A DNA stretch of 64,000 bases from Ornithodoros turicata (taxonomy: Eukaryota; Arthropoda; Arachnida; Ixodida; Argasidae), in the NCBI RefSeq assembly GCF_037126465.1, contig NC_088201.1, positions 128,030,665-128,094,664 on the forward strand, read 5' to 3'. Positions 16,235 to 45,375 of this stretch are shown here, one piece after another (position 1 is the stretch's first letter; each line of letters starts with the position of its first letter). The notes below the pieces were generated by a model. The model saw only the letters and a list, made by a program, of their open reading frames with translations, searched no databases and was not told where the DNA came from. Position numbers and translations under genes: made by a program.

Positions 16235-16302
16235 GGCCCGCGCTATATATTCTTTTCACCGACGTCACGCGCGCGATGCATCATGGGTTTGTGCGCCATA
16301 TT
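16235..16302 (+). repeat. Left terminal inverted repeat of the ISL2EU-like element (outer part)
   Basis: It reads tcttttcaccgacgtcac ... gcgccatatt up to the Polinton insertion point and continues at 40670 as tttgtatcg. The right end at 45302-45375 carries the mirrored words in the same order. Confidence 0.65.
16297..16302. repeat. Target-site duplication CATATT, left copy (outer Polinton)
   Basis: CATATT lies immediately before the AGTAGTATAGAA terminus and is repeated exactly at 40664-40669 after the mirrored terminus. A 6-bp duplication is characteristic of Polinton/Maverick integration. Confidence 0.9.
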
Positions 16303-16479
16303 AGTAGTATAGAACATGACTGTATAATAACCGTTACGTAAAACGACATCCTTTTTCTAATCCAAGATGGCCGATTCTAATCCAATTCTAAGCCAAAATC
16401 CAGTTCTAAGCCAACACAATCAAGTTCTAAGCCAACACAATCCACTTGTAATCCAACACAAGCCAAATCCAAAGCCATC

Positions 16480-17450
16480 TGATTGGCCGCCATTAGCCCC
16501 GCCCACTTCACGTTGATTGGTCCACGCCAAGCCCCACTGATCATTGATTGGTCAATCGTAGCTCCGCTCCTTTATGCTAATTAGTTGGCTTGGCTCCACC
16601 CAGTTCACGCTGAATGGCCCGTGCTAAGCCTACTGATCATTGATTGGTTGACTGTAGCTCCGCCCCTTTATGCTAATTACTCAGCTCTGCCCACTTCACG
16701 CTGATTGGTGCATGCGTATCGCTGAGCACAGCTCCGCCCCTTTATGCTAATTAACCGGCTCCGCTGATTGGTCCATTCTAAGCCTACTGATCACTCTCCA
16801 CATTTTCCACACTTTCTAAGCCCTCTGATTGGCCGTCCCCCGTTTAAGCCTACCGATTGGCCCGTTCTAAGCCCGCTGAACATAGCCTTCATTAGCGCCC
16901 GCAAGATAGCAGCGACCCCGCTGCGGCTTTATCTCAGATGTTCAAACTTACCTATCTCTTCATGCCGATTGGCCCGCGCTAAGCCCCACCATAATGGCTA
17001 GCAGTCCTGATTGGCCTACTGAACATAGCCTTCACCGGTGCCAGCCAGATGGTGCGCCGATCGCTCGGCAGTGGCCTGCGGCTTTATCTCAGATGTTCAA
17101 ACTTACCTTGTGGTGTGCAACTTTCCACCCACTTCGTGCTGATTGGTCCATTCTAAGCCTACTGACTTCTAAGCCGGTCGACGCTAAGCCTGCTGATCAC
17201 TCTCCCAGTGCTCTGATTGGCCGTTCCCAGTTCCCTACCAATTGGCACTCGCTGGCCCGTTCTAAGTCCACTGGCACCAGATGGCGCAACTCTTTACTGG
17301 CTCCAACCACTTCATGCTGATTGGCCCATTCTAAGCCTACTACTTCTAAGCCGGTCCACGCTGAGCCTACTGATTGGCCCTTCACACCAAAGCCTACCGA
17401 TGACTTGCCCTGATTGGTCCACGCTAAGCCTACTGAACAGTGATTGGCTA
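16480..17450 (+). promoter_or_regulatory. Dense CCAAT-box / GC-box / octamer cluster in the left arm
   Basis: About 17 copies of ATTGG in CTGATTGGYY-like context lie within about 1 kb. They alternate with gctccgccc (GC box) and atgctaatta (octamer-like) words. CTGATTGGYY is the binding consensus of the NF-Y transcription factor, GC boxes bind Sp-family factors and ATGCTAAT resembles POU sites. The density and regular alternation suggest an enhancer or promoter array, but they also reflect descent from a short tandem unit. Function is inferred. Confidence 0.55.
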
Positions 17451-18171
17451 GCCTGTCGCTCCTAAACCACAATGCAGCCGCTTCAGACAAGACAAACGAC
17501 AATTGTTGATTTCAACCTTTATTTGGTACAACAGCCTCCTGGTCCAGCTGTGGGATGGTTCAGCTGCATCAGAGAGATCTCGGTCATCTCTTGCGCTCAT
17601 CGGTCACTCAGCTCCCTCGGTAGACACCAACTGCTGTCGGTTCATCGAACTACAAGTGGTTGTGCTCATTGGCCCATCTGACTACAAGCCTCTCATTGGT
17701 CACTTATGTCTAGAGCTTCCTAACAGTTTCGAACTGCACTTCCACTCATCGCTTGACCCGACTGCTACTCCCTCTAATCTCTAGATGAGATAATATAAGT
17801 TTAACTGTGGGATATTGGAACTTTTACCATAAGATAGGTTTAGCCAGGGGCTGGTAGGCTCCAACTGCTATCGACCCATGCCTCCATCCGCGGCTGCTCA
17901 CTGGCTCACAATGAAACTTTTTCACATGCTCTGCCCTACACATACAATAGATGGCGCCGGTTGTCTTTGCAAAGATGGACAGCCGCGACGCGAGTATTGA
18001 TAATGTCCATTCTAACTGCATTGGTCACTCCTTTCTATCCAACTGGTTCATATTTCTAGCAAGAGAGCCAACATTAGAAGTGAAATCTGTTGCTGAACAT
18101 TACAAAACATGAATAAAACAGCTTACATCAACATGTTCGGTGCCGCCATCTGAAGTCAGCCCCCTTCATGC

Positions 18172-18235
18172 TATCCATGCCCCTCATAGCCACGGTTGCC
18201 TCGCGGTGCTAACGGCAAATTAAAAAAAAATTCAG
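18172..18235 (+). repeat. SINE 3'-tail fragment in the left arm
   Basis: The words ctcatagccacggttg, cgcggtgctaac and an A-rich tail match the 3' end of the full SINE at 45678-45962. The same fragment sits inverted in the right arm near 38525-38590, so the insertion is older than the present matching of the arms. Confidence 0.6.
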
Positions 18236-19994
18236 GATACAATGAACACATCTTAAAACACGCTCTACTCATCTCTCCATAGAACACGAGTAAAGTGGGC
18301 TTAACCACTTTGTATGCATGCGTAGGGGGAAGCCCACCTCTGGGAACAAGCTTTCGTTTTTGTGATAGTGTGCCTTTGCACTTCAACATCAAAATTTAGA
18401 TCAGTGTTTATCAAGCAGAATGGAGAGGAAAAACATCAACAATGCTATAGACTAGTGAAGCGCGTTCATTCTCAAAAGCTGAAGAACGAATTTTGTCGCA
18501 GATAGTGTGCTTCAACAACAACAGCAAAACAAAACAAAATGTTTCAATGTTTAATAAGCAAAACGAAAAAAAAAACATCGTGATGCCAAACTGTGAAACC
18601 CACTAGCTCCGCACGGACAGTAAGAAGCACAATTAGAAATATAAGTCCAGGGTGATCACACAGATTCAAAATGACCGAAGTTCATCACATTATAAGCAAG
18701 TTCACCTCAGAATAAATGTGTTCACTTTAACAGTATCACAGTTACAAATATGACAGGTTTTACACCACATAGATTCACCGCGCGTCACGCGACACGAGCA
18801 CCATACAGCACGCAATATCTGAAACGCATGGACAGCCCACGCGATTTTAGCCTGCCCATATCCGCATATATTGCAATTTTTCACCTGAGAGGCATGCACA
18901 CACCGTTATCACGTAGCTATGCATACACACACAATACAATTTTGAATGCGTAATCTGCGTATGATCGCGACGCACGAGCTCAACATGCGCCGATATAGAC
19001 ACACCAAACTATCGCGCACCTTCCAGGTTTACAAATCTACATCACGCAGCAAACGTAGCCAGGGTGTATTTCACGCGACACACCTCCGCGTTCGCACGAG
19101 CACTACTCAACAGTATGAAGAAATATAGATTTAGGATGATCGCACTCAATCTTAAAAGGCAGATTCAACCCAAGCTGAGTATGAAGAAACACAATTTCAC
19201 ATTGCTCTCCCAGAACATTACGTGCAAACATAGCCAGCGCACGCAACCCACCTCGCACGCAGAGCACAACTGGAAGCACCATTAGAAATATTAGGATGGT
19301 CGCATTATGAACAGGTTCATCTCGGAAAAAATGTGCTCACCTTCGCAGACTGGCACATACATTCACGAGCACCATGCAACAATATCTGAAACATGCGGCG
19401 CGCGGGCAGCTCAAGCGACTTTAGCCTGCCGATGTCCCGATGTCCGTGTATATTGCGGTTTTAGACAGCGTGCTTTAACATAAGAAATTAACTAAATCAA
19501 GCAGAATGATAGAGCACAGTGATGCTATGTCATAAGGCTCTCACTGACGCTCCAACGCTTATTAAACAATGCTATGCAGTGAAGCTTCGTACGTACTCAA
19601 TGTTAAAAACGGACACTCAACCCAAGCTGAGTACGAAGAAACACAATTTAACATTGTTCTCTCCCCGAACATCCCGTGCAGTGGCACCTCTGCGTTCCTT
19701 CTCTATACTGGAAGCACCAATATTAGAAATATTAAGATCATCGCACTATGAAGAAGTTCACCTCATCAAAAAAAAAAAAAGGGGGGGGGCTCACCTCATC
19801 ACACCGGTATGACGCACGTAGATTCTTGTGGCGCGGCGCCGTACAGCAGGTTAGGGAAACATGGGCACACTTCACAACATGCGCCGACACACGAAAATGT
19901 CGCGCACCTTCCTGGTTCACCCGCATGTCGCCAACTTACCGTGCCAGCCGCACGGAAAACTAGATAGCCGGATCACAGGCGCATAATATAACCC

Positions 19995-20110
19995 AGGACC
20001 ATCTCTTTTATATCAATGTTGGCTCCTTTCTGCAAGGTTGCAAGTACGAGAAATTGGGTCACCTTGAAGATGAGCCGGTGTTGGAGCCATCTGTTTTATA
20101 TCAAAACGCA
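19995..20110. promoter_or_regulatory. TATA-bearing cassettes in the left arm
   Basis: Two words related to the reverse complement of gatataaaacagatgg occur here (catctcttttatatcaatg, then catctgttttatatcaaaac). Each is followed by a cggtgttgg/ttggctcc-like segment. The right arm has them in the other orientation near 36660 and 36752. The same cassette is arrayed in front of the inner polymerase gene at 28520-29170. Confidence 0.45.
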
Positions 20111-21076
20111 CTTCCACCCGTCATGGCCAAACTGAGTACTCTGCGGCGGACCCTAGCGGAAAAAAATGTTGCGTCAAGGTGATGTAAATAGGCTTTCTCC
20201 GAGAAACTGGGTCGCCTCGTAAGTCATGTTTTCCGAGGCCGCACGTATTAAAACCAAAAGTAAGCAGTGATCACACCACGCTATGTGAAGAAAAAAATAT
20301 CCCTATGAGCCCACGTCACCACCTGCTCATTGCCGAAACAAGCTTTCTCTAACCAAGAACAAAGGGTTCGCTTATGCAGTTTCCAAGAAGTTCCAAATGT
20401 TATTCGCGCATCACGGGCCGTTCCTGCGTGATTCTATAAACAAAATCACACCACCCTCCAAGGGCGCATTTGAGTTCCGTCCGTCCGTAGACTCTGGGTC
20501 AAGCACACAACGAGGAAGATGAGGAAAGTTCTCATTTTCAGTTCATTCGGCAGTAAATTAAAAGTATTTCCTGTTTTTAGGGGGGCAAATTCGGTGTTGT
20601 GTGATGGGGGGGAGAAGCTATATAGATAGCTGATAAGGAGAAGGGTTATATAGCACGTACTCATCGGCTAAGAGAGTATAGTTTGTGGAGAGCGCCACAC
20701 TATTTTAAAGCCATTTTATATCATATCCCAAACGTTCTGCGCGATCAAACAGCATTATGGAAAGAAGAAAACCGTTTCACACATCACGGTGCGTGCGCGT
20801 TTCAGCGTGCTCAAACAAGTTCTGGCTATTAGTAAAAGAAGTAGTTTTGGGTTCCCAGGCGGGTTCTGCATGGTGTTTCCAGCGCATCAGGCGATGTTCG
20901 ACAACAGCGTAAAGTGTTCTGCGCGATCAAACAAGTCCCGCTCCCACGCGCGCGCCATATCATGACTTGTTTCAGCGTGCTCAAACAAGTTCTGGCTTTT
21001 GTGGTGAGACGTGGGACTCGTATGATGGTGCAGATTTGTAAGAAACACTGAAGAAATTCAAGGATGATCCTCTGAC

Positions 21077-21118
21077 ATGAGAAAAGTGATGAGCAGCGAC
21101 TTGACAACCGCGAAAGTG
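21077..21118 (+). pseudogene. First codons of the outer-Polinton ORF, cut by the inner element
   Basis: An ATG at 21077 opens a frame of 14 codons that reaches the AAAGTG target duplication. The same frame resumes at the duplicated AAAGTG at 33873-33878 and continues to 34241. The inner Polinton thus inserted near the 5' end of this gene. Uninterrupted, it would encode about 134 residues. A downstream ATG at 33903 could still give a shortened product. Confidence 0.65.
21113..21118. repeat. Target-site duplication AAAGTG, left copy (inner Polinton)
   Basis: AAAGTG directly precedes the AGTAGTATAGAA terminus of the inner element and recurs exactly at 33873-33878. Confidence 0.9.
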
Positions 21119-21735
21119 AGTAGTATAGAAAGGAGTCCTATAGCCAAGAGTTTTCTCTAATCCAATTCCAATCCAATTCTAAGCCATAATCCAGTTCTAA
21201 TCCGACACAATCCAGTTCTAAGCCAACACAAGCCAAATCCAAAGCCATCTGATTGGCCGCCATTAGCTCCGCCCAGTTCACGCTGATTGACCCATGCTAA
21301 GCCTACTGATCTGATTGGCCACCATTAGCTCTGCCAACTTCACGTTGATTGGCCCATGCTAAGCCTACTGATCTTTGATTGGCTGACCGTAGCTCCGCTC
21401 CTTCATGCTAATTAGTTGGCTTGGCTCCGCCCAGTTCATGCTGAATGGCCCGTGCTAAGCCTACTGATCATTGATTGGTTGACTGTAGCTCCGCCCCTTT
21501 ATGCTAATTACTCGTCTCTGCCCACTTCACGCTGATTGGTGCATGCGTATCGCTGAGCGCAGCTCCGCCCCTTTATGCCGATTAACTGGCTCCGCTGATT
21601 GGTCCATTCGAAGTCTACTGATCACTCTCCACATTTTCCAGACTTTCTAAGCCCTCTGATTGGCCGTCCCCCGTTTAAGCCTACCAATTGGCCCTATTCT
21701 AAGCCCACTGATTGGCTGACTAAGTCCGCGTCACA
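21119..21735 (+). repeat. Left terminal inverted repeat of the inner Polinton (about 0.6 kb)
   Basis: It mirrors 33235-33872 and is made of the same CTGATTGG / aagcctactgatc / gctccgccc / atgctaatta words as the outer arms. I count about ten ATTGG cores in the last 490 bp. It ends near ctgattggctgactaagtc, which is mirrored by gacttagtcagccaatcag at the right end. Confidence 0.85.
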
Positions 21736-21756
21736 CGAGCGAGAGAAGTTTGTCGA

Positions 21757-21940
21757 GATGTGCTGCCACATATTGTGCTCCCGTATCAGCGCAAACAAGT
21801 TGCGGGAAATCATACGCGAAATCTTGGATGAGTACCTGTCGGCTTACAGGGAGCAATCACTGCGCGAGCTTCAGGAACTATGTCAGGAAGAAATAAGAGT
21901 CCTGGAGACGATCATCAATCGTGCTAGGAGCTATGGATGA
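21757..21940 (+). CDS. Small charged helical protein, unrecognised
   Basis: A frame of about 60 codons starts at an ATG just inside the terminal repeat and ends ahead of the ATPase gene. The product has a Cys pair near its start. It then has heptad-like spacing of Leu/Ile with many Glu and Arg, suggesting one amphipathic or coiled-coil helix. The longer open frame reaching back to 21599 is terminal-repeat sequence, so I chose the internal start. It could be a chance frame. Confidence 0.35.
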
Positions 21941-21991
21941 AACTAAAGATGCATCACACCTCGCTACACAGTCTGCTTGAGTTATTCCACG

Positions 21992-22609
21992 ATGCGCATG
22001 CAGTTCCAGCACCCCGCTCGAATTCTCATCTCCGGCGCGTCCATGTGTGGGAAGACGGTGCTCACGCAGAATATAATGAGACACCCCGAAGTATTTAGCG
22101 TTCCATCGCAGAATATCCTCTACGTACGAAAGTATGCAGCCGGCTGGGAAAAGGATTTCGACAGTGTGGAATTTATGGACAGGATACCCGCAGATTGGGA
22201 TGAGCGATATCCCACTCTCATAGTTATTGACGATCAAATCACGGAAAAGGGGGTTCTCTCGGAGGTAGAGTCGTTGTTTGTACGTGGTAGCCATCATAAG
22301 AATGCGTCCGTGATCCTGATCACACAAGCCTTGTTCTATCACAATGCCGCTTTTCGAACGATATCGCTGAACGCCAGTTATATCGTATTGTTCCGGAACG
22401 CTCGGTCCGTACAACAGATCGAAACCTTCGGACGTCAGGTGTTCTGGAAACAGGGGCTCTCCTATTTTCTCGATGCATATAACCAGGCGACGAAGAATGC
22501 GCACGGTTATTTAGTTGTGGATCTGCACGTGCAAACACCTCCCTCTCATAGCCTGCGAACGGGTATTTTACCGCACGACTGGCAGTTCCTGTTTACGCCC
22601 GCGAAATGA
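21992..22609 (+). CDS. Packaging ATPase (FtsK/HerA superfamily, A32-like)
   Basis: This would be the motor that pumps element DNA into capsids. The protein of about 205 residues has Walker A GASMCGKT near residue 16 and a hydrophobic strand ending in the Walker B acidic pair (TLIVIDDQ) near residue 70. A sensor-like segment (SVILITQALFY) comes about 30 residues later. These features and the size fit the A32-type ATPases of Polintons and adintoviruses. I chose the ATG at 21992. An open frame extends upstream to 21977 without an ATG. The stop overlaps the next gene's ATG (22606). No frame damage is seen. Product family is confident; packaging is inferred from the family. Confidence 0.85.
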   Translation: MRMQFQHPARILISGASMCGKTVLTQNIMRHPEVFSVPSQNILYVRKYAAGWEKDFDSVEFMDRIPADWDERYPTLIVIDDQITEKGVLSEVESLFVRGSHHKNASVILITQALFYHNAAFRTISLNASYIVLFRNARSVQQIETFGRQVFWKQGLSYFLDAYNQATKNAHGYLVVDLHVQTPPSHSLRTGILPHDWQFLFTPAK

Positions 22610-22980
22610 CGGCCGATCTTAGAAGACATCTCACGCTCCTCAAAGTATTGGCCGCCAGCAAACCGACGCACCGCGCGGAGTTACTTAAAGAGCTCAGCTG
22701 CGACGACATTCGAGTCCTTTCGGAAATCTGTCTGAATATTCTACGTGGAAATATCCCACTTTCGACGGAACTTTATAAAAACCTGAAGAAACACAAAAAA
22801 ATCCTCCGCTTCCTCGCTTACAAGTCACTTCATAAGTGCCCCCGGCAGTTGAAGAAATATATTAGGGGACAACGAGGTGGTCTCATTCCCATACTTCCGC
22901 TGTTCCTCTCAGGGCTATCAAGTCTCGTGGCAGGAGTCGCCGGGCGAGCGATATCCAAAGCTATTGGTCATGGCTCATAG
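22606..22980 (+). CDS. Small conserved Polinton protein with hydrophobic C-terminus
   Basis: The 124-residue product starts at an ATG overlapping the ATPase stop. Its first two thirds are basic and helical, with repeated Leu and a K-rich centre (KKHKKILRFL). A QRGGLIP turn then leads into a hydrophobic, glycine-rich tail of about 35 residues. Small proteins of this design (basic helices, then a GG turn and hydrophobic tail) are common next to the ATPase in arthropod Polintons, where their role is unknown. A virion or membrane-active role is possible. The frame is intact. Confidence 0.6.
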   Translation: MTADLRRHLTLLKVLAASKPTHRAELLKELSCDDIRVLSEICLNILRGNIPLSTELYKNLKKHKKILRFLAYKSLHKCPRQLKKYIRGQRGGLIPILPLFLSGLSSLVAGVAGRAISKAIGHGS

Positions 22981-23362
22981 AATAGAAATAGGTGAAGTTC
23001 TGAAATGTAACGATTCGGATGATGTAAAAGTGGGCAAAATACTGGAAGCCCTCTATTACTTGCTGAAGCGTGCTCACTATCATCCTCCTCCTCCTCCTCC
23101 TCTGGAACCAGTCCATTCGGAGCCCGAACCGGAACCCAATCAATTCGATTTTAGTTTTCTGCCCTCCGGCGTTGATAAAGCACGTGCGAAATCTGTGCTA
23201 AAAGAATTGAAGAAAGTTTTCACCTGGCAGGCGGATAATGTGCTAGTATATAGAGGGAAGCGAATCAATCGCTCAAACATTGTGGCTCTCGTGAGCTACT
23301 TAGCACGTCGTAGCGCGCTCATCAAGAAACCTGCTGGTACAAAAAAGTATCGAAAATTATAA
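22970..23362 (+). CDS. Small protein with polyproline linker, unrecognised
   Basis: The frame of 130 residues starts at an ATG at 22970 that overlaps the preceding gene's end by 11 bp. The open frame extends further upstream, but that part shadows the previous gene. It has an N-terminal helical segment, a run of eight prolines followed by an acidic EPEPEP stretch, and a basic C-terminal domain. The domain layout suggests two small folded parts joined by a flexible linker. I do not recognise the family. Confidence 0.5.
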   Translation: MAHRIEIGEVLKCNDSDDVKVGKILEALYYLLKRAHYHPPPPPPLEPVHSEPEPEPNQFDFSFLPSGVDKARAKSVLKELKKVFTWQADNVLVYRGKRINRSNIVALVSYLARRSALIKKPAGTKKYRKL

Positions 23363-23459
23363 GCGCTCTGAAAATACACCGCATTGCTCGCTGGAGCAAA
23401 TATGGGGCCCTATAGAAAGATCAAGGAGAAAGGGTTAGGTGGAGTTATCACAAGCTCAC

Positions 23460-24274
23460 GCGCTCAGAAGCCGTGGAACAGCTGAAAAAAGAAGATGCTT
23501 ACACCCTTCACAAGCCAGTGAAGAAAAAATTTAAGCGGCGCTCCATCATCGCAACTCACGTGCGGGATTTATATCGGGCAGACCTTCTGGATATGCGTAA
23601 ATATCAGAAATTTAACAAGGGCTTCAGGTACATCTTAACGGTCATAGATACGCTATCGAGGTACCTGTACATGGTCCCCATTCGCACAAAGCGCCCGCAA
23701 GACGTAAAGAAAGCCTTCCAACGAGTTTTCCGTCACGGAATTCCGAAGAATTTGCTCACGGATCGCGGAAGCGAATTTTCAGTCGCTACTAAATCACTAT
23801 AGCACGCAAAGCGGAATGAAAGCGGCCTCCTGTGAACGCGTGCAGAGAACAATTAGAGAAAGAATAGCCAGGCATTTCACTAGTACGGGGAAGTTTAATT
23901 ATATCAACGTGCTGCCGAAGGTAGTGGCTGACTATAACGACTCGGTACACTCCGTCACGGGCGAAAAGCCGAAAAACGTGAGCGCCGGAAATGAAGTAGC
24001 TCTGTTCAACAGATTGAATCGTAAGACGACCCCACGCGAGAGCAAGTATAAAGCAGGGGACCAGGTGAGGCTCGCGTTAGATCACTGCGTGTTCGCCAAA
24101 GGCTACGATCAAAGGTGGACGGCCGAAGTGTTCGAGGTGTCACGAACGAGAAAGACCGATCCGCCCGTAGTGTACGTGAAAGATTCGACGGGAAAAGAAA
24201 TACTGGGATCATTCTACGAGCAAGAGCTGCAGCCCGTCGATTCTTGGGTGCCCGCCAGCGATGTCAGAAAATGA
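23460..24274 (+). pseudogene. Retroviral-type integrase (rve), frameshifted
   Basis: The integrase inserts element DNA and makes the 6-bp duplications. The first frame (to about 23802) carries the AYTLHKP and KFKRRS segments typical of Polinton integrases. The catalytic-core aspartates follow (DLLDM, then LLTDRGSEF). The second frame (23816-24274) carries the CERVQRTIRERI helix with the expected catalytic glutamate and a C-terminal SH3/chromo-like part (KAGDQVRLAL ... VVYVKD ... YEQELQPV). The frames meet at a shift near 23775-23800, between the second Asp and the Glu. An upstream start is also unclear, since no ATG in frame precedes 23473. The 3' end overlaps the next gene's ATG at 24261. 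Confidence 0.8.
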
Positions 24275-25552
24275 ATTTTACGTGTATCTGCTCTCGAACG
24301 CCAGCATGGACCTGTACCCATTCAACACGCTGAATGACTTCACGATCGCGTTAGATAAGCCGCTACACCTGGATGATTCGTACGTCGTCGGTCTAGAGGG
24401 ATTTTCCATTCCCAACAGCTTTCTGAATGTGAACCAAGCGCCTGATAACCTGATAACGCTATCAACGGAGAAGTGGCAAACAAAACAGCTCACGTTCGAA
24501 GACACGGACACGCTATTGAATAAAATATTCCCCGAATATGGGATAGAGTGGACTTACGAGGAAGATCACTACGTGTTTAAGCTACCGTCGCGCGTGCGCT
24601 CGGTGAAATTAATCGACAGACCGCTGCATCTCGCCTTTGGAATCGTCGACATCGATGGAGATCATCCGGAGGGCGGTAAAGTACGCGCCGTCCCAAACGT
24701 GTTACCGCTCGCGGAGGAAAGAGCCGTTATGATGCAAGTTCGCCGGGTGATAGTGATCAATAACGATCTAATTTTAGAACCCCGATCGCTAATTACCGAC
24801 ACATTCAACGAATTCTTCTGAGCGATGAACGATACAGAATCAAGGGTGGAATACAACGACAAACTCAACAAAGTCAATACAAAGACTTACTCGCTCTCTC
24901 TCCCGGCGAATTTCAACTTGTCGACTGAGTTCCTGGACCTCATTCAGGTGAAGCACGTCCGTGTTGAAGGATCCCGAAAGCGCATCACGTGTAATCCCAT
25001 AGTGAAGACGTACCGCATCCACATAAACACTCGAGAGACGGAAAGTCGGCGAATTTCACTTCCACCGAATTACTACGAAACACCCGAAGCTCTCGTGAGC
25101 GCCATCCATGAGCGTCTGCAGCCGGAGGCTTCCCTCACGTACGATGCATGGGCGAGGAAGTGTTCGTTGAGCTTGCGGGAAAACGTGTCCCTTACATTAT
25201 CCGATTACTTTGCGTACCTACTGGGTTTCGGCGCAAAAACCGTATTTACCGAAAACGATACGGGCGTCGACGTTATTAACTGTCCATTAACTGTATTATG
25301 ATATACACGGATCTCGTCGCGCCCTCCGTAGTGGGAAACGGGCGGCCTCCGATACTGAAATTAATTTCATTCGTATATGATAGAAGGAAAGAACAACTGA
25401 GTTTCAGCTTTCTTCCCGTTCAGTATTTTAAGTTAGTGCAGCGCGAAATTTCCTCAATCACCGTCTCTATACGCGACGACACGGGTCGCAAGCTACCGCT
25501 GCAAAATCGCGGTAGATCGACGCTGACGCTGCACTTTAAGGATGTACACTAA
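24261..25552 (+). pseudogene. Minor capsid (penton-like) protein gene, interrupted twice
   Basis: Three consecutive frames (24261-24821, 24825-25301, 25298-25552) look like one gene. The start has the LLSNASMDLYPFNTLNDF pattern that opens a widespread Polinton-associated protein. The end has the YTDLVAPSVVGN and IRDDTGRKLP segments that close the same family. The first two frames share phase and are separated by one TGA codon (24819-24821). The third is shifted by one base at an ATGA overlap. Joined length would be about 430 codons. The family is often taken as the penton or minor capsid jelly-roll protein, which I hold as likely rather than proven. Separate short proteins are a less likely reading. 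Confidence 0.65.
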
Positions 25553-25886
25553 AGCGGTACCAATCTACGGATCTGGCGTTCCGACGGTATACAGGTCGCA
25601 CCTGTACCAGAGGGGAGGCAATTTCTTTTCTGAGCTCGGGCGCTTCGCTATTCCACTGTTTAAACGCGTATCGCCCTACTTAAAAAAGACGGCTGTTGCG
25701 GCCGCTAAGCGCGTGGCCAAAAATCTGTCGGAGGGAGACTCTTTCCAAAGTGCGCTTAAAAGATCGGCGAAAGATACGGGCCGTGAAATTCTCCGCGACC
25801 TCGGAGGGGCTGGCAGGCGAAGAAAGAGGAGAAAACCGGACGTCTTCGACGGCATAAATCACGCCGGTTGCGCAGCCACAATTTAG
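25542..25886 (+). CDS. pVI/pX-like minor core or capsid protein
   Basis: The 114-residue product has an N-terminal Tyr/Gly stretch with a YQRGG turn, an amphipathic segment (FFSELGRFAIPLFKRV), alanine/lysine-rich helices and a strongly basic tail (RRRKRRK). This layout matches the small basic proteins (adenovirus pVI/pX-like) found beside the major capsid gene in Polintons and adintoviruses. Such proteins bind DNA or disrupt membranes. It overlaps the previous gene's end by 11 bp and is followed after 7 bp by the major capsid gene. The frame is intact. Confidence 0.6.
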   Translation: MYTKAVPIYGSGVPTVYRSHLYQRGGNFFSELGRFAIPLFKRVSPYLKKTAVAAAKRVAKNLSEGDSFQSALKRSAKDTGREILRDLGGAGRRRKRRKPDVFDGINHAGCAATI

Positions 25887-25893
25887 TTGCGAG

Positions 25894-27172: not shown

Positions 27173-27174
27173 CG

Positions 27175-28183: not shown

Positions 28184-28194
28184 ATCTCTCAGTG

Positions 28195-33147: not shown

Positions 33148-33169
33148 AAGGTATTTTTTCCCTGTCTGT

Positions 33170-34947: not shown

Positions 34948-35261
34948 TATGCTGTGTCGATGTGCTATCTCGAATGATGTGCGGTGGGAGCTCGAATTGC
35001 ACAGCGTGTTGCCTATTTACAGATATAGAGGAAGAGCATTTTCGCACCACTTACATCAGGCTTCGAAAGTACCTTATTCCCCATACTTTGTTTTAGGGTT
35101 ACTGCATGTGTGGTTATAAAGATACGCGATGTCAAACGCCCGCGTGGCAATTTCAAAAAAATGCGTCGAATGAGGTAGGCTGGACGTTCGAAACCGTCTG
35201 TTCATGCATTCAAAAATCTTTTGTGCGGACGAAAGAGCTTTATTTTACGTGAGGATTAGTT

Positions 35262-35696
35262 TTACTCGATCTTTAGGGGACAGCCATCCGGTTCGTACAT
35301 GATACGACAGCATTCATTCCAGAGGTAAACTAAGACGTGCAGCAGATGGAGAGCTTGAAGAATATCTATGGCCGCGATGTCTCTGTAGCCGTATCTCTTT
35401 AGGACTTCGCCGAGATCGCGTGATATCATGAATAGGTACGCATCTCCTTTTTCTAGCTCAATTTCGTGGTGTACTCGTTAGGATCTCGTTCACAGCATCG
35501 TCTACCCTGTCGATGGTGGTGAATCGTTTCCCGATGAAAGCTTCATAGAGACCCCGCGGTACTGCATCGTCCGGAATCCAACCGAAAAACGCCGTCAAAA
35601 CATCGAGAACCGTTCGCCCTGCTGAAAATAGTGCTTTCGATTAGACAGCGAGGATAAAATCGCAATACCTTTTCTAATTCGGCTGTCCATTTCCAT
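35262..35696 (-). pseudogene. Outer-Polinton cargo protein B, paralogue of A, one frameshift
   Basis: On the minus strand an ATG at 35696 opens a 28-nt exon ending at a gtattg donor. The intron (35622-35668, 47 bp) ends in ttttcag and the next exon continues in matching phase. The product aligns with the 34537-34947 protein almost end to end (VLDV, FF.WIPD, GLYEAFIGKRF, DLGEVLKRYGY, ILQALHLL, WNECC). A frameshift near 35475, after the NEILTS segment, breaks it. Its first exon sits directly at the inner edge of the right arm, so its promoter would lie in the arm. Confidence 0.5.
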
Positions 35697-36654
35697 AGTG
35701 TGTGCCCTTCAATCTCTTCAGTGTTTCTTACAAATCTGCACCATCATACGAGTCCCACGTCTCACCACAAAAGCAAGAACTTGTTTGAGCACGCTGAAAC
35801 AAGTCATGATATGGTGCGCGCGTGGGAGCGGGACATGTTTGATCGCACAGAACAATTTACGTTGTTGTAGAACATCGCCTGATGCGCTGGAAACACCATG
35901 CAGAACCCGCCTGGGAACCCAAAACTACTTCTTTTACTAATAGCCAGAACTTGTTTGAGCACGCTGAAACGCGCAATCACCGTGATGCGTGAAACGGTTT
36001 TCTTCTTTCCATAATGCTGTTTGATCGCGCAGAACGTTTGGGACATGATATAAAATGGCTTTAAAACAGCGTGGCGCTCTCCACAAACTATACTCGCTTA
36101 GTCGATGAGTACGCGCTATATAACCCTTCTCCTTATCACCTATCTCTATAGCTTCTCCCAGCCCATCACACAACACCGAATTTCCCCCCCTAAAAACAGG
36201 AAATACTTTTATTTGACTGCCGAATGAACTGAAAATGAAAACTTTTCTCATCTTCGTCGTTGTGCGCGTGACCCAGAGTCGACCGACGGACGGAACTCAA
36301 ATGCGCCCTTTGAGGGTGGTGCGATTTTGTTTATACAATCACGCAGGAACGGCCCGTGATGCGAAGGACATTTGGAACTTCTTGGAAACTGCATAAGCGA
36401 ACCCTTTGTTCTTGGTTAGAGAAAGCTTGTTTCGGCAATGAGCAGGTGGTGACGTGGGCTCATAGGGATATTTTTTTCTTCGCATAGCGTGGTGTGATCA
36501 CTGCTTACTTTTGGTTTTAATACGTGCGGCCTCGAAAAACATGATTTACGAGGCGACCCAGTTTCTCGGAGAAAGCCTATTTACATCACCTTGACGCAAC
36601 ATCTTTTTCCGCTAGGGTCCGCCGCAGAGTACTCAGTTTGGCCATGACGGGTGG

Positions 36655-36775
36655 AAGTGCGTTTTGATATAAAACAGATGGCTCCAACACCGGCTCATCT
36701 TCAAGGTGACCCAATTTCTCGTACTTGCAACCTTGCAGAAAGGAGCCAACATCGATATAAAAGAGATGGTCCTGG
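36655..36775 (+). promoter_or_regulatory. TATA-bearing cassettes in the right arm
   Basis: The words gatataaaacagatggctcc (near 36665) and gatataaaagagatgg (near 36753) match the cassettes upstream of the inner polymerase gene. They are mirrored at 19995-20110. Confidence 0.45.
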
Positions 36776-37714
36776 GTTATATTATGCGCCTGTGATCCGG
36801 CTATCTAGTTTTCCGTGCGGCTGGCACGGTAAGTTGGCCACATGCGGGTGAACCAGGAAGGTGCGCGACATTTTCGTGTGTCGGCGCATGTTGTGAAGTG
36901 TGCCCATGTTTCCCTAACCTGCTGTACCGCGCCGCGCCACAAGAATCTACGTGCGTCATACCGGTGTGATGAGGGGAGCCCCCCCCTTTTTTTTGATGAG
37001 ATGAACTTGTTCATAGTGCGATGATCTTAATATTTCTAATATTGGTGCTTCCAGTATAGAGAAGGAACGAGGAGGTGCGACTGCACGGGATGTTCGGGGA
37101 GAGAGCAATCTGAAATTGTGTTTCTTCGTACTCAGATTGGGTTGAGTGTCCGTTTTTAACATTGAGTACGTGCGAAGCTTCACTGCATAGCATTGTTTAA
37201 TAAGCGTTGGAGCGTCAGTGAGAGCCTTATGACATAGCATCACTGTGATCTATCATTCTGCTTGATTTAGTTAATTTCTTATGTTAAACGCACGCTGTCT
37301 AAAACCGCAATATACGCGGACATGGGAGCTGCCCGCGAGCCCCATGTTTCAGATATTGCTGCATGGGGCTCGTGAATGTATGTGCCCGTCTGCGAAGGTG
37401 AGCACATTTTTTCCGAGATGAACCTGTTCATAATGCGACCATCCTAATATTTCTAATGGTGCTTCCAGTTGTGCTCTGCGTGCGAGGTGGGTTGCGTGCG
37501 CTGGCTATGTTTGCACGTAATGTTCTGGGAAAGCAATGTGAAATTGTGTTTCTTCATACTCAGCTGGGGTTGAGTCTGCCTTTTAAGACTGAGTGCGATC
37601 ATCCTAAATTTATATTTCTTCATACTATTCAGTAGTGCTCGTGCGAACGCGGAGGTGTGTCGCGTGAAATACACGCTGGCTACGTTTGCGGCGTGATGTA
37701 GATTTGTAAACCTA

Positions 37715-37768
37715 TAGTAGCGCGACCTAGCGTAGTACCTAGTAGCGTACCTAGCGCGATAGTTTGGT
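37715..37768. repeat. Short tandem block present only in the right arm
   Basis: Words of the type tagtagcg / acctagcg are repeated about four times (tagtagcgcgacctagcg, tagtacctagtagcg, tacctagcgcgatag). The left arm near 19015-19020 has only the final element (actatcgcg). This is a recent local expansion. Confidence 0.5.
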
Positions 37769-38524
37769 GTGTCTATATCGGCGCATGTTGAGCTCGTGCG
37801 TCGCGATCATACGCAGATTACGCATTCAAAATTGTATTGTGTGTGTACGCATAGCTACGTGATAACGGTGAAAAATTGCAATATACGCGGATATGGGCAG
37901 GCTAAAATCGCGTGAGCTGTCCACGCGTTTCAGATATTGCGTGCTGTATGGTGCTCGTGTCGCTTGACGCGCGGTGAATCTATGTGGTGTAAAACCTGTC
38001 ATATTTGTAACTGTGATACTGTTAAAGTGAACACATTTATTCTGAGGTGAACTTGCTTATAACGTGATGAACTTCGGTCATTTTGAATCTGTGTGATCAC
38101 CCTGGACTTATATTTCTAATGGTGCTTCTTACTGTCCGTGCGGAGCTAGTGGGTTTCACAGCTTGGCATCACGATGTTTTTTTTTCGTTCTGCTTATTAA
38201 ACATTGAAACATTTTGTTTTGTTTTGTTTTGCTGTTGTTGTTGAAGCACACTATCTGTGACAAAATCCGTTCTTCAGCTTTTGAGAATGAACGCGCTTCA
38301 CTAGTCTATAGCATTGTTTATGTTTTTCCTCTCCATTCTGCTTGATAAACACTGATCTAAATTTTGATGTTGAAATGCAAAGGCACACTATAACAAAAAC
38401 GAAAGGTTGCTCCCAGAGGTGAACTTACCCCTACGCATGCATACAAAGTGGTTAAGCCCACTTTGCTCGTGTTCTATGGAGAGATGGGTAGAGTGTGTTT
38501 TAAGATGTGTTCATTGTATCCTGA

Positions 38525-38590
38525 AATTTTTTTTAAATTTGCCGTTAGCACCGCGAGGCAACCGTGGCTATGAGGGGCAAGGATAGCATG
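38525..38590 (-). repeat. SINE 3'-tail fragment in the right arm
   Basis: This is the mirrored copy of 18172-18235, with the same A-rich tail and the same truncation point. Confidence 0.6.
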
Positions 38591-39289
38591 AAGGGGGCTG
38601 ACTTCAGATGGCGGCACCGAACATGTTGATGTAAGCTGTTTTATTCATGTCTTGTAATGTTCAGCAGCAGAATTGGCTTCTAATGTTGGCTCTCTTGCTA
38701 GAAGTATGAACCACTTGGATAGAAAGGAGTGACCAATGCGGTTAGAATGGAGATTATCAACACTCGCGTCGCGGCTGGCCATCTTTGCAAAGCAACCGGC
38801 GCCATCTATTGTATGTGTAGGGCAGAACATGTGAAAAAGTTTCATTGTGAGCTAGTGAACAGCCGCGGATGGAGGCATGGGTCGATAGCAGTTGGAGCCT
38901 ACCAGCCCCTGGCTAAACCTATCTTATGGTAAAAGTTCCAATATCCCACAGTTAAACTTATATTATCTCATCTAGAGATTAGAGGGAGTAGCAGTCGGGT
39001 CAAGCGATGAGTGTAAGTGCAGTTCGAGACTGTTAGGAAGCTCTAGACATAAGTGACCAATGAGAGGCTTGTAGTCAGATGGGCCAATGAGCACAACCAC
39101 TTGTAGTTAGATGAACCGACAGCAGTTGGTGTCTATGGAGCTGAGTGACCGATGAGCGCAAGAGATGACCGGGATCTCTCTGATGCAGCTGAACCATCCC
39201 ACAGCTGGACCAGGAGGCTGTTGTATCAAATAAAGGTTGAAATCAACAATTGTCGTGTGTCTTGTCTGAAGCGGCTGCATTGTGGTTTA

Positions 39290-40480
39290 GGAGCGACAGG
39301 CTAGCCAATCACTGTTTAGTAGGCTTACCGTGGACCAATCAGGGCAAGCCATCGGTAGGCTTCGGTGTGAAGGGCCAATCAGTAGGCTCAGCGTGGACTG
39401 GCTTAGAAGTCTGGCTCAGTAGGACGAATCAGCATGAAGTGGGTGGAGACAGTAAGGAGTTGCGCCACAAGGTAAGTAGCATGGACCAATCAGGGGCCAT
39501 CCATCGGTAGGCTTAGAATGAACCAATCGGTGTGAAGGCCTAATCAGTAGGCTTAGCGTGGTTCGGCTTAGAAGTCAGTAGGCTTAGAATGGGCCAATCA
39601 GCATGAAGTGGTTGGAGCCAGTAAAGAGTTGTGCCATCTGGTGCCAGTGGACTTAGAACGGGCCAGCGAGTGCCAATTGGTAGGCTTAGACTGGGGACGG
39701 CCAATCAGAGCGCTGGGAGAGTGATCAGCAGGCTTAGCATCGACCGGCTTAGAAGTCAGTAGGCTTAGAATGGACCAATCAGCACGAAGTGGGTGGAAAG
39801 CTGCATGCCACAAGGTAAGTTTGAACATCTGAGATAAAGCCGCAGGCCACTGCCGAGCGATCGGCGCGCCATCTGGCTGGCGCCGGTGAAGGCTATGTTC
39901 AGTAGGCCAATCAGGACTGCTAGCCATTATGGTGGGGCTTAGCGCGGGCGAATCGGCATGAAGAGGTAGGTAAGTTTGAACATCTGAGATAAAGCCGCAG
40001 GGGGTCGATGCCATCTTGCGGGCGCTAATGAAGGCTATCTTCAGCGGGCTTAGTGAGCCAATCAGTGGGCTTAGAACGGGCCAATCGGTAGGCTTAAACG
40101 GGGGACGGCCAATCAGAGGGCTTAGAAAGTGTGGAAAATGTGGAGAGTGATCAGTAGGCTTAGAATGGACCAATCAGCGGAGCCAATTAATTATCATAAA
40201 GGGGCGGAGCTGTGCTCAGCGATACGCATGCACCAATCAGCGTGAAGTGGGCGGAGCCGCGTAATTAGCATAAAGGACCGGAGCTCAACCAAGAGTCAAC
40301 CAATCAATGATCAGTAGGCTTAGCACGGGCCATTGAGCGTGAACTGGGCGGATCCAAGCCAACTAATTAGCATAAAGGAGCGGAGCTACGATTGACCAAT
40401 CAATGATCAGTGGGGCTTTGGCGTGGACCAATCAACGTGAAGTGGGCGGGGCTAATGGCGGCCAATCAGATGACTTTGGA
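39290..40480 (-). promoter_or_regulatory. CCAAT-box / GC-box / octamer cluster in the right arm
   Basis: This is the mirrored counterpart of 16480-17450, with repeated CCAATCAG words, ggggcggagc and taattagcat. Four or more tandem ttggcttagaactggattg-type words lie near its outer end (40490-40575). They are fewer in the left arm. Confidence 0.55.
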
Positions 40481-40663
40481 TTTGGCTTGTGTTGGATTAC
40501 AAGTGGATTGTGTTGGCTTAGAACTGGATTGTGTTGGCTTAGAACTGGATTGTGTTGGCTTAGAACTGGATTTTTGCTTAGAATTGGATTAGAATCGGCC
40601 ATCTTGGATTAGAAAAAGGATGTCGTACGTAACGGTTATTGTACAGTCTTATTCTATACTACT

Positions 40664-40669
40664 CATATT
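40664..40669. repeat. Target-site duplication CATATT, right copy (outer Polinton)
   Basis: This is the exact repeat of 16297-16302. The following bases (tttgtatcg) continue the ISL2EU-like terminal repeat interrupted at 16302. Confidence 0.9.
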
Positions 40670-40771
40670 TTTGTATCGAAACCAGCCATCCCCGCCTAGT
40701 ACTCTGTTGAGTCTGTCTGTGTTTTGGCTCCCTTTCTTCTTCGTGTGCCTCCGCCGTCGATTGGATAATTA

Positions 40772-42895
40772 ATGGTGATTTGTGCGAAAGTTGGCTGTGC
40801 GAACCACCCGCATCGTAAACGAGCGAAACTAGAGAAGAATGTGCAAGATGAACGATTCTTCAAGATACCTGCAGTTCGCAACCGTGAATGCAATCCTACC
40901 CGTGAACTATCTGCCAAACGAAGGGCTCTGTGGGTTGCTAGGATTCGAAGGAAGGAATCCTAGGAAGGACATTAATATGAAGGACAGGACATTAATATGA
41001 ACAATCTCGATAAACACTATGTTTGTGGACGTCACTTCTCCGGGTGAGCATTAATTCGTAAGTTTCCTACCAATTCTCCACTTTTCCCTCACAGCCACAT
41101 GAGGTGTTACTTTTGTTAATGAAATCTGCGTTTTCGGCTCCCTACCTCCCTCTTTCTTTTTTTCTTTGTAGTGGCTGCCCTGCGAAGTTATTTGATGATA
41201 GCGCACCTAACTGGGCTCCTCACAGAGAACTTGGGTACGAGTTGACGGTGAGTCAATAAGCACATGAACGCCACTATCGACAGCAGAAGCGCAGTCGAAA
41301 CAGGGAAAATCTCGCAGGTAATACTGTTTTGGCGTAGAACGAAATATGTGCACATGTTGATGTACTTCTTCTGTCGTTGTTCACGATGCCGGAAATGCAT
41401 AGCATTTCCATGAGGAGCCAGGCCAAAACATTTCACTCAGCCAAGCTGATCAAACTGGTGCCACTGCGTCAGGTGGGTTCTTTCATGTCTACAAAGTGTC
41501 ACTGCTGTATTCCTTATTCCTAAAAAATAAATTCCTGCTGCAGATTTTTCACATGCGGAGAGTGGACTCGATCACTCGGATGTCACTGGTGAGAATGTTC
41601 ATTGAATTGTTGAAATGTAGAAACTAACCTCAAAAACCAAACATAGAAATGATCTGGCAGAGCAAGTACAGCAGGATATCTGTTCTTTAGCTTTAGATCT
41701 TGAGCTGGTGGTAGAACAAGACTAAGGATGAAACTTAGGCAATAAAACTATGTCCTCATAAGTGCATACATATATAATAATTCTTCTTTTCTGAAAGCTA
41801 AGTATGCCATGTCATGTAAGTACGCGCTTCAAAGCTCCAAATGAGCAGGGCTTGTAGGGCTGTGCATTAAAATTGATGTAAATTTAATCTACTTCAGAGC
41901 CTCCCACATACCAACAGCTAATGGATGAGATCTCACGGCTAAATGAGCAGTATACAACTGTAGGGCTGCAGCAGCAAAGCATGATTTCACGGAAGACAGC
42001 CTGACGAATGATGATGGCAGGGTCCGGTTTTATACTGGGCTTCCATCGTTCCAAGCGCTCAACTCTGTGTACAGGATTGTATGTGATCACGTGTCATATG
42101 GACCACAGAATATTCTGTCAAAGGTTTAGGAGATGATCGTCTGTTTGATGAGGCTGCGTCTCAACCTAAGTTTACAGGACTTGGCCTACAGATTTGGTGT
42201 GTCGGTACCAACGGTGTGTATGATTATTGATAGATGGCTTAATGTATTGTATGACAGGCTTCGCCTACTTATCAGATGGCCAACACAAGAAGAAAATGCG
42301 AAAAGCATGCCGTTGCCTTTTCGTGAAAATTTCGGGTGCAAGGTACGGTGTATCTTGGACTGTTTTGAAATATTCATTGATCGTCCCAGTTCTTTAGATG
42401 TCAGGGCTGCAACGTGGTCACAGTATAAAGGGCATAATACTGTCAAGTTCCCCATTTCTATATGCCCTCTTGGTAGTATAACTTTTATTTCAAGGTCATA
42501 TGGGGACCGAACGAGTGACAAGGTGAGTACTGAAGACTGTGGAATTCTGACTAACTTGGAGTATGGTGATGTGGTTTTGGCGGATCGGGGTTTTTTGATC
42601 GCAGAGAGCGTAGGGTTGCGCTGTGCAACCCTTCACGTCCCTGCATTCACCCGAGGTAGGAAACATCTCAGCTGAGTTAGAATCAACACGTTCACTTGCA
42701 AATGTAAGAATACAGGTTGAAAGAGTTATTGGTATAGTGAGAAGCAAGTATACCATACTCAAAGGCCCACTGCCAGTTGACACCCTCGTGACTAACAGCA
42801 GCAGGGAAGTGCCACAGATTGATAAAATATCCACTGTGTGCTGCTGCTTGGTAAACCTTTGCAACTCTGTTGTTTCTCCCATACCAGTTCATTAA
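40772..42895 (+). pseudogene. ISL2EU-like transposase: THAP domain plus DDE_Tnp_4-type core, broken
   Basis: Exon 1 (40772-41043) gives a THAP domain: MVICAKVGC, an FFKIPAV segment, the invariant W in ALWVARIRR and the second zinc pair in VCGRHF. A gtgagc donor joins in phase to exon 2 (41172-41247, GCPAKLFDDSAPNW). Short candidate exons follow near 41446 and 41544. The last part (about 41897-42895) has a RVRFYTGLPSF segment and an HTH (LQDLAYRFGVSVPTV). The DDE residues are in ILDCFEIFIDRP, VLADRGF and VERVIG. Breaks are a small duplication near 40960-41000 that brings stops, a shift near 42000, a TAG near 42128 and a shift near 42675. THAP plus this DDE class is typical of ISL2EU and related transposases. 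Confidence 0.75.
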
Positions 42896-43249
42896 GCATT
42901 CATGATGAAGACGAGTTTGTTAGGGTGTTGCAGTTTTGACTCCTGTAAGTTTATTGCACATAAGACTAGTAAAGCAGATAACTGTGAAATGATGGTTAAT
43001 AAAAATGAGTAAAATACCACACAATTGTAATGGTCATTCAATTGTGGAGGCAGCTGTTGCAGTACCACTGCTTTGTTCTTGGTGTGGTCTTTAGCCCAAC
43101 ACATGGAAAGTGGAACCAACCAGTCGTGCAAGTCTCGGAGTAACACCTGATCATTTTGCCTTCCCCAGGCCCTTTACATATGCAGTATGTCCCATCCTCT
43201 GTGCCAGCAGAATGTGCACTGTTGTTTTAGTTTGTGAGGTGTATGGTTG

Positions 43250-45221
43250 TCAGTGGCATATGTAGTCCCCTTCTTGCACTATTGTGAACAGGTGTCGAAG
43301 AGTCTTGTTGAGATCGAGTGACATTCTCCTGTTCACTGTTTCTGGTGTACCACTTTCCGAACAGTTCTGGCAGAAGGCCCCGACAAAAAAAAAATTGTAT
43401 GCCTGATCCAGTGCCTCAGAGGTGAAAGCTGTGTTTGCCATTACTCTCTCTACACTGAAGTCATTCTTGCTCCATAAAACAAAGTCACCATAAGAAACGT
43501 CACAAGTACGCGTGGTCACGACGTAATGATAACTTGCCAGACTGATTGTAGACACAACTGCTTTTTTGGCTTGTAAGCTCTATGAACATGACATCCTTTG
43601 CACTGTAAGGACACTTCACCTCTACAACCCCTTTTCCGCAGCAGTTGTATTCCACCAACAAATCTGGTGTTGCTCCAAAGAAGGGGGTAGTTTTCGGCAC
43701 AATCAATCCTGTTTCCTTAAATGTCACAGTTGCATGTGTCTTCTCTGCCACTGATTTGTAGGTGTCCAGCGCATCTTTCTCATGTTTTCTGCCATACTTC
43801 ACCTCTTTTGTCGAGAACAGGTGCTGCTTGGGGTAGCATATCCGTCTTATTAAGTTCTCTGAGGGTTTCTCTAGATCCGTTCGGCACACCGCTTTCAGAT
43901 TAGAGGCTGTTACACGACCTGCTGTGCATCGGTACCACTGGTCACACTGTGCTTGCTTTCTCGTTGATTTCTCAATCTCCTTGGCGACTTCATCATTTAC
44001 TTCCAGGCTTTCTGCCACAGTTCTGCATTTCTCTAACAATTCATCCCAGTTCATTCGTGTTGCACGTGGGTCCTCTAGAGATGTTAAGTTTGCGGCCTTG
44101 CATCTTATTAAGTGTGGAACATAGAGATCGCTATATTTGGACATTGTCCCAGCACATACTGACCTGTGACCAGAACCAATTAGGTCATCAAAAAGTGTAC
44201 TCCACTCTTCCTCAGTGGGTTCTGGTGCTGGAATACGCTGGAGTAGCATCTGTGGCTTGACTTCAGAACCATTGAAGCGCCTTTTCCGTACTTTTGGAGA
44301 TGAAAAATCCATTTCTAATATAGGTTTTGGTACAAGCTTTTTAACGTGCGGCGGCAGCCAAGAATTAGCACGATCAGTGCATGAACTTGATTCAAGAACT
44401 TTTCGTCCCATTTCAAGAGAAGTGATGCTACGTGAGAACACGTTTCACTTGTCCCTGCCATACAGGTACAATGTCCCAAGATGACTTCACCGTCCAGCCG
44501 AATAACATAATAATAATGACAGGCATTGCGAGTGATTAACCTGCAATTAGAAAAAGATTTCGCTGTACAAATAAGTGGAAGGCTGCATGCATCTTAAAAT
44601 TCTCTGTTTAACTGTTGTGGAAGGGTGAAAGTTTGAACCAGTTGGTCTTTTTTTCCTAATAAACATATCTCCCCCGCCAACCCTCTGTTGGTACATAGTA
44701 TTGGAGAAAGGTAACCAGCGGTAAACACAGGACAAAAGATGTAGACACACGGACGCTGGACACCAGCGTCCGTGTGTCTTCTAGTTCTCTCTGTCGCGTT
44801 TTTCCCGATGGGTATGTTTCTCCAGTTTAACTGTTGCTGCAGTGTCACTGTCTACTGTACCGTAACAGCTGCTGATCCTAAGTACACTTACCTCTGTGAT
44901 CATGACGACTTCCCCACCGTTCAGGAGCTTCACACGTGGTTCTCGCACCCAGCCACTAGTGACATAGTTGTATGCCTCCAGCGACTTTGTCGCTTTCAAC
45001 TGCTTTCGCGTGAGATAGCTTGTCCTAGTTACAAGATAATCATGTATGCCCATTATGTCCAACTCCGGCCACAACGAAACATTACTCACGCAGTCACTTT
45101 CGGAAAGCAGGAAGGGGTCGACGCCACTGCACCTTTCCACCTTGATCTCGTACCGTTTAAGGTCGTCTCCAGATAGTGTTGACCGGTAGTTTCGTGCTTC
45201 GACGCGTTTTGATGACGCCAT
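43250..45221 (-). pseudogene. SWIM zinc-finger / YqaJ nuclease gene of the ISL2EU-like element
   Basis: Exon 1 (45221-44892) has the SLEAYNYVTSGWVREP segment that opens this family and ends at a gtaagt donor. The intron (44891-44541) ends in ttgcag. Exon 2 begins with a VNHSQ motif. After a one-frame slip in an att-repeat it gives a SWIM finger (GHCTCMAG ... CSHVASLL). The YqaJ exonuclease domain follows: QWYRCTAGRVTASN, KYGRKHEKDAL, then the catalytic FFGATPDLLV and GVVEVKCPYS. A shift near 43550 separates the C-terminal part (DFVLWSKNDFSVERV, ending in CQNCSESG). ISL2EU elements are known to carry a YqaJ nuclease, which is probably involved in end processing. Confidence 0.75.
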
Positions 45222-45301
45222 ATCAATCGCAACACGGTGACATTTGATATATTCCGTGTAAACGCCGACGCCTGCACTACGCGACTGTCCGCACAACAGC
45301 G

Positions 45302-45375
45302 TTCCTACACAAAAATATGGCGCCGGGATTCTGTCGTCTGCTACGGTGACGTCACGTGAAAAGAGCCTATACGTA
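45302..45375 (-). repeat. Right terminal inverted repeat of the ISL2EU-like element
   Basis: The words aaaaatatggcgcc, then gtgacgtcac and gtgaaaaga mirror the split left terminus (16235-16302 joined to 40664). The last shared bases are near ctata. The exact end is uncertain because a second gtgacg/gacgtcat block lies just outside at 45379-45400. Confidence 0.6.

Follow-up and report, generated by a model that had tools for sequence, protein, structure and literature searches.

Discussions of Polintons, also called Mavericks, usually present them as virus-like elements that carry genes. The ISL2EU group of the PHIS superfamily is described, in the parts of the accounts consulted (PMC4482050, PMC9179366), as having an AT target duplication in A|AT|T and terminal inverted repeats (TIRs) of 6-259 bp that start with GG. 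For intact vertebrate Mavericks, the portion of the description consulted (PMC8097293) gives TIRs of 46-1,447 bp and lengths of 12,723-24,620 bp. In this study, elements resembling both kinds were analysed in a stretch of 64,000 nucleotides from the genome of the soft tick Ornithodoros turicata (hereafter the window; G000:C1:128030665-128094664), where the original prediction, made from the letters alone, had placed an ISL2EU-like transposon interrupted by an outer Polinton that is itself interrupted by an inner one. The observation was confirmed and its overall interpretation was partly supported: the outer element, which has Polinton-type ends, apparently belongs to a high-copy family of non-autonomous elements with long TIRs, and in our judgement this long-armed family is a more interesting result than the nest.

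The nest and the long-armed family

The end motif AGTAGTATAGAA was found at 16303 and 21119 on the forward strand and, mirrored, at 33861 and 40652, at both ends of the outer and of the inner element and at no other site in the window. These termini are flanked by two exact 6-bp target duplications, CATATT and AAAGTG, both verified at their predicted positions; the chance of one exact 6-mer match is 1 in 4096. The nest is N-free throughout, the sole gap of the window lying at 46413-46512. Termini, duplications and empty sites in sister copies agree on a three-level nest, with the inner element inside the outer and the outer inside the ISL2EU-like transposon, as follows.

16251-16302, + strand: terminal repeat at the left end of the ISL2EU-like transposon, interrupted at its CATATT by the outer insertion (sister copies align from 16244-16251 on)
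16297-16302, + strand: target duplication CATATT, left copy (exact match)
16303-40663, no strand: outer element with (AGT)2 ends, 24,361 bp including the inner element and ~11.6 kb without it (by arithmetic)
16303-21063, + strand: outer element's left arm, a long TIR, at a Kimura two-parameter (K2P) distance of 0.0351 from the right arm
21113-21118, + strand: target duplication AAAGTG, left copy (exact match)
21119-33872, + strand: inner element, decayed coding Polinton, 12,754 bp
33873-33878, + strand: target duplication AAAGTG, right copy (exact match)
35706-40663, - strand: right arm of the outer element (inverted match to the left arm)
40664-40669, + strand: target duplication CATATT, right copy (exact match)
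40670-45371, + strand: ISL2EU-like transposon from the outer insertion to its right end, body included (sister alignments, domain matches)

For the nest of three mobile elements, both paralogous empty sites, and the long-armed family with its duplications, long arms and ends, we put the probability at about 0.85.

The outer element consists of ~4.8-kb inverted arms enclosing a ~1.9-kb loop; apart from the inner element, only ~46 bp to the left of it and 1.8 kb to its right are single-copy, and everything else is arm. The two arms in the window differ by 161 substitutions over 4,699 sites, with 20 gaps (standard error, SE, of the K2P distance 0.0027). Both inserted elements had been labelled Polintons, and both share (AGT)2 ends and 6-bp duplications with the Polintons/Mavericks of the account consulted in part (PMC8097293). 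The label stands for the inner element, which is coding and decayed, but not, in the gene-carrying sense, for the outer one, which has Polinton-type ends with ~4.8-kb arms outside the 46-1,447 bp range of that account, a net length of ~11.6 kb against 12.7-24.6 kb, and core genes that were not found. Specifically, no Pfam match to a polymerase, integrase, protease, ATPase or capsid was obtained in five open reading frames (ORFs) of the window's outer element and seven ORFs of sister copies, these being selected ORFs only. The scan of sister copies gave one EsV_1_7_cys match (6.7e-07) in a repetitive frame, and at the protein level the outer and inner elements shared, among the matches listed, the TIR region and short matches.

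Searching the 1.07-Gb genome with the outer loop yielded 308 first-look candidates and at least 40 scored copies, the window's own included, all copy counts from this search being lower bounds; the other main loop matches were 91-96% identical to the query. Loci were taken for 30 of the 40 scored copies, and because one of these (L010) is the window itself, 29 others of 39 were available for comparison. The ends were examined in 10 of the 29. Both termini (AGTAGTATAGA-type) were present in five, four of which carry exact 6-bp target duplications (CATGCA, TGCGTC, CACATC and TTCGCC) and one a duplication matching at 5 of 6 positions; the stretch taken from each of the remaining five lacked a locatable terminus at one end or at both.

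Four copies were aligned half by half, all drawn from the five with both termini; they were the better-preserved ones and are not representative of the family as a whole. In the L060/L061 copy the arms are 99.25% identical over 4,921 columns (36 substitutions in 4,920 sites and one single-base gap) around a loop of 2,105 bp. The arms of the three further copies contain indels and are 0.98-1.26% diverged over 2,736-4,508 aligned sites, giving a range of 0.73-1.26% across the four. The arms extend 4.1-5.7 kb from the ends in all four, L062 being aligned over 2,736 sites only. In the youngest long-armed insertions the arms are only 0.5-0.9% diverged, and some copies of the family look, from their arm divergence, younger than the window copy.

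Two outer-family loops (L012 and L031, contig C4) lie only ~10.6 kb apart in the same orientation, close enough that the two copies may be direct neighbours or have an arm in common. Two further loops of the family are ~72 kb apart on C44.

Order of the insertions and rival histories

The prediction that an ISL2EU-like transposon had received the outer element in its left terminal repeat held. The flanks rejoined at a single CATATT read ...TCTTTTCACCGACGTCACG...GTGCGCCATATTTTTGTATCGAAACC, the right end of the transposon, inverted, reads TCTTTTCACGTGACGTCACC...CCGGCGCCATATTTTTGTGTAGGAA, and the two, judged by eye, form an imperfect terminal repeat. A genome search for further copies of the transposon and for empty sites found four sister elements, L006 (C5), L007 (C10), L008 (C1) and L009 (C6), and all four run unbroken across the outer site, matching the window from 16244 or 16251 to 16302 at 96-100% and then from 40670 onward. 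The empty site reads CATATT in three sisters and CATAGT in L006. The sisters stop at window position 45371 (three of four) or 45372 (one of four); the limits of the element are about 16244-16251 to 45371 and not the predicted 16235-45375.

The second set of empty sites comes from the outer family. The inner end motif was found in none of the 29 other copies (3.8-kb loci), and the inner site reads as a single AAAGTG in 22 and AAACTG in 5, that is, at 27 of the 29 junctions; in L021 and L033 the inner element is absent by coordinates. The nesting and the two sets of empty sites together lead to the order ISL2EU-like element, then outer, then inner, which we regard as well supported by these sequence comparisons. 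In such a sequence of events, an ISL2EU-like transposon would have inserted at the locus, a member of the long-armed family would have entered its left terminal repeat with duplication of CATATT, and a coding Polinton, related by its ends to the long-armed family, would have entered the loop with duplication of AAAGTG. Substitution ages are consistent with this order: the window copy of the ISL2EU-like element has private substitutions at 89 of 4,295 sites (0.0207; tree branch 0.0253), and half the arm distance is 0.0351/2 = 0.0176 for the outer element and 0.0319/2 = 0.0160 for the inner TIRs. Dating the outer against the inner insertion by arm divergence was tried and rejected, the values of 0.0351 (SE 0.0027) and 0.0319 (SE 0.0072) being inseparable.

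The original prediction had called the order clear, but nesting alone is also compatible with a composite move, in which the inner element entered a long-armed element elsewhere and the resulting 24-kb composite then moved into the ISL2EU-like element. The overlap of the outer-arm and inner-TIR ages was all that this analysis found in favour of such a history, to which may be added that 24,361 bp falls inside the 12,723-24,620 bp of intact vertebrate Mavericks (PMC8097293, as far as consulted). The inner element is, however, absent from all 29 other outer copies taken (of 39 scored), and if every move remade the arms alike, the age of the outer arms should not exceed that of the inner TIRs, whereas they are slightly, although not significantly, older. 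We consider a composite move improbable.

The outer element might instead be a Polinton stripped of its genes by deletion, its long arms resulting from a single accidental inverted duplication. The Polinton-type ends and duplications speak for this, as does the fact that polymerase, integrase and protease were not found in the ORFs scanned. Many copies nevertheless have this loop between stretches of arm sequence, and there are copies with their own target duplications and young, near-identical arms; these features indicate a lineage that moves, as opposed to a single decayed copy, which makes this explanation of the window's element very improbable, although a deletion and duplication of this kind may have been the family's origin. 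That the junctions are assembly joins of unrelated repeats is hardly credible, for although the nest has a 100-N gap and a satellite at a distance of ~1 kb, it is itself gap-free and the exact duplications at both junction pairs match the empty sites in sister copies.

Gene content of the three elements and their surroundings

The coding pieces recognised in the inner element, with its TIRs, are given below.

21119-21729, + strand: left TIR, ~0.61 kb (TIR alignment)
23416-23802, + strand: integrase core (rve) piece (E 6.8e-08, 33.1 bits against a cut-off of 32.6)
27154-27609, + strand: adenovirus-type protease piece, Peptidase_C5 (E 9.3e-05, 22.6 bits against a cut-off of 21.3)
29177-32563, + strand: DNA polymerase B, broken across several reading frames (DNA_pol_B_2, E 3.8e-09, in the piece 29955-31619)
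33240-33872, - strand: right TIR (TIR alignment)

By its predicted genes and termini, the inner element is a decayed coding Polinton. Its (AGT)2-type ends, 6-bp duplication and ~0.61-kb TIR, within 46-1,447 bp, are Polinton/Maverick features, and the pieces of polymerase B, rve integrase and adenovirus-type protease, the ~0.6-kb TIRs and the length of 12.75 kb all resemble the elements described in the part of the account consulted (PMC8097293); it differs from these in that the genes are broken and that an ATPase and a capsid were not confirmed. The TIRs show 19 substitutions in 611 sites. The polymerase gene is judged broken because it is spread over several frames; its pieces are 85-90% identical to O. 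turicata proteins P0001/P0002, except for one 30-residue piece at 77%, and P0002 matches at 87% over 49% of the query. A sequence search with the polymerase piece found no solved structure, and the rve piece had no match in viral contigs in a search suited to close relatives only. An AAA_14 match (E 0.0049) was under the cut-off. The candidate capsid at 25858-26676 had neither a Pfam match nor a homologue, and its structure model was poor (predicted local distance difference test score, pLDDT, 34.4); this and a second model (pLDDT 49.4) were both too poor for structure search.

The inner element also contains a 119-bp tandem repeat at 28722-29189. Near this repeat, a 133-bp stretch (28391-28523) shows 80% similarity to two places in the outer arms, 20339-20457 and 36313-36429.

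Three frames were recognised in the loop of the outer element.

33879-34238, + strand: loop frame A (stop-free across the inner element's site in sisters L014, L015 and L028)
34540-35016, - strand: loop ORF B, paralogue of ORF C, unknown family (ORF and sister comparison)
35265-35640, - strand: loop ORF C (window frame shifted relative to 26 sister copies compared)

Since frame A crosses the inner element's site without a stop in these sisters, the inner insertion would split it in the window. B and C form a tandem pair on the minus strand and are 52-59% identical as proteins in sisters with open frames. Comparison of B with C in open-frame copies only (12 non-independent pairs from four copies of B and three of C) gave synonymous divergence (dS) of 1.18-1.51, values above 1 approaching saturation, nonsynonymous divergence (dN) of 0.29-0.37 and dN/dS of 0.2-0.3, which indicates that the predicted pair has been under purifying selection after duplication. 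Within the family, measured against the window copy, crude dN/dS was 0.74 for A, 1.19 for B and 0.73 for C and revealed no clear coding constraint; of the other copies, 22 of 29 have an open frame A, 17 of 28 an open B and 0 of 26 an open C (by the window frame). Our reading is that the loop genes were probably constrained before the family's spread and little afterwards. Protein search with ORF B gave no homologue, and frame A had no match in viral contigs, again among close relatives only.

Three gene pieces were recognised in the ISL2EU-like transposon.

40769-40957, + strand: THAP-like start of the transposase gene, broken in the window copy (THAP in sisters L006 and L008)
42130-42675, + strand: transposase piece with HTH_Tnp_4 (5.6e-18) and DDE_Tnp_4 (1.8e-23) (Pfam)
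43500-44444, - strand: YqaJ exonuclease piece (Pfam, 8.8e-13)

The window's own broken THAP-like piece had no Pfam match; in L006 (2.3e-08) and L008 (8.7e-07) the THAP domain lies on an open frame apart from the DDE frame, and the transposase frame is 337 or 338 amino acids long. L008 also has a YqaJ frame of 518 amino acids (1.6e-16), with a PHD-finger match just under the cut-off. The element measures ~4.76 kb in the window and 4.9-5.2 kb in the four sisters. All five copies have TATA-rich ends: the right ends, inverted, read TATAGRCTC in four and TATATGCTC in one, and the left ends TAGATTC in three and TATATTC in the window, L007 being cut short. A GG is present at the right end in two of the five. 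To judge from these domains, the host transposon is ISL2EU-like. A THAP, HTH and DDE transposase, a YqaJ gene, a length of ~4.8 kb and an animal host agree with the ISL2EU group in the parts of the accounts consulted (PMC4482050, PMC9179366); as a difference, no clean AT duplication in A|AT|T was readable from the five copies.

Outside the nest, the 100-N gap at 46413-46512 adjoins a satellite array at 46516-59336 with ~70 copies of ~184-bp units, a 369-bp double unit scoring higher. Retrotransposon remnants with Integrase_H2C2 and RT_RNaseH domains lie on the minus strand at 60610-61904, followed by a 42-bp tandem repeat of ~12 copies at 62174-62694. On the other side, direct and inverted repeats of ~300-850 bp and 95-97% identity cluster at 4704-7536, and two tRNA-type matches on opposite strands (11474-11764) lie inside an inverted repeat formed by 11447-11571 and 11658-11791.

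Proposed mobilisation of the family and upkeep of its arms

The ends and the 6-bp duplications of the outer family point to a Polinton-type integrase. In the terminal 300 bp, five of eight copies were closer to the inner element and three to the window's outer element. The terminal 295 bp of L058 are 4.7% from the inner TIR as compared with 12.8% from the window's outer TIR, which suggests that ends were exchanged in this copy. From the resemblance of outer-family ends to those of the inner element, we infer mobilisation in trans by coding Polintons of the inner element's lineage. The integrase of such Polintons would move the long-armed family, their polymerase would probably copy it, and every round would remake both arms alike, either because the displaced strand anneals to itself or through conversion. 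We hold this mobiliser, replication route and homogenisation to be a moderately probable mechanism.

Arms were compared from their outer ends in 11 copies (10 and the window), 7 of which had an arm alignment of at least 700 bp. In six of the seven, the arms were closer to their own partner than to the nearest other copy, the nearest-copy alignments often being shorter. This result fits arms that are remade alike during copying.

Several findings weigh against the reading given here. One of the seven copies (L050/L051) shows the reverse, and 4 of the 11 were without a usable arm alignment. For the inner 480 bp of the arms, a weak tree of 23 copies (the window and 22 others) placed the two arms as sisters in only 6, and 7 of the 29 copies gave no readable pair. 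The evidence for homogenisation thus does not extend to all copies or to the whole arm. Several of these 480-bp stretches look rearranged, with distances of 20-44%, and for this reason the longer outer-end and half-by-half alignments were preferred. Another comparison of arms gave rows for 22 of the 29 copies; the rows of L011, L024 and L038 did not set one arm against the other, and none of its counts was used. In addition, the arm ages cannot distinguish the outer from the inner insertion; nucleotide sharing between the two elements is confined to about the first 0.6 kb and the one 133-bp stretch; and decayed or short pieces of core genes in the outer element could have escaped, because only selected ORFs were scanned.

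A further, tentative and rather doubtful proposal is that the long-armed family is a satellite of tick Polintons, an integrated parasite, which would borrow their integrase and protein-primed polymerase, keep its 4.9-kb arms alike by way of its replication intermediate and carry the small conserved genes A, B and C, whose products may act on the Polinton or on the host; the inner element would then sit inside its own satellite and split frame A. Snap-back (defective) genomes of adeno-associated virus, in the part of the description consulted (PMC8235507), resemble the outer element in that their terminal duplication is inverted and encloses a short loop, and dependence on a fuller genome would, in our own reading, be a second likeness. 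They belong to a parvovirus and are not an integrated repeat family, so that the comparison is one of analogy only.

In the open-access papers searched, neither 'non-autonomous' nor 'nonautonomous' immediately preceded the words Polinton or Maverick, and 'Polinton MITE' was absent; 'Polinton-derived' occurs once in each of three papers. Titles and abstract openings from this open-access literature showed no long-armed Polinton family. The nest yields a relative order for three kinds of element, supported by two sets of empty sites. Because copies with near-identical arms and older copies coexist in one genome, the upkeep of long-arm likeness and the use of Polinton ends in trans become testable. 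A high-copy derivative in which core genes were not found, with Polinton-type ends, 4.9-kb arms and some young-looking copies, suggests that Polintons, too, have non-autonomous parasites.

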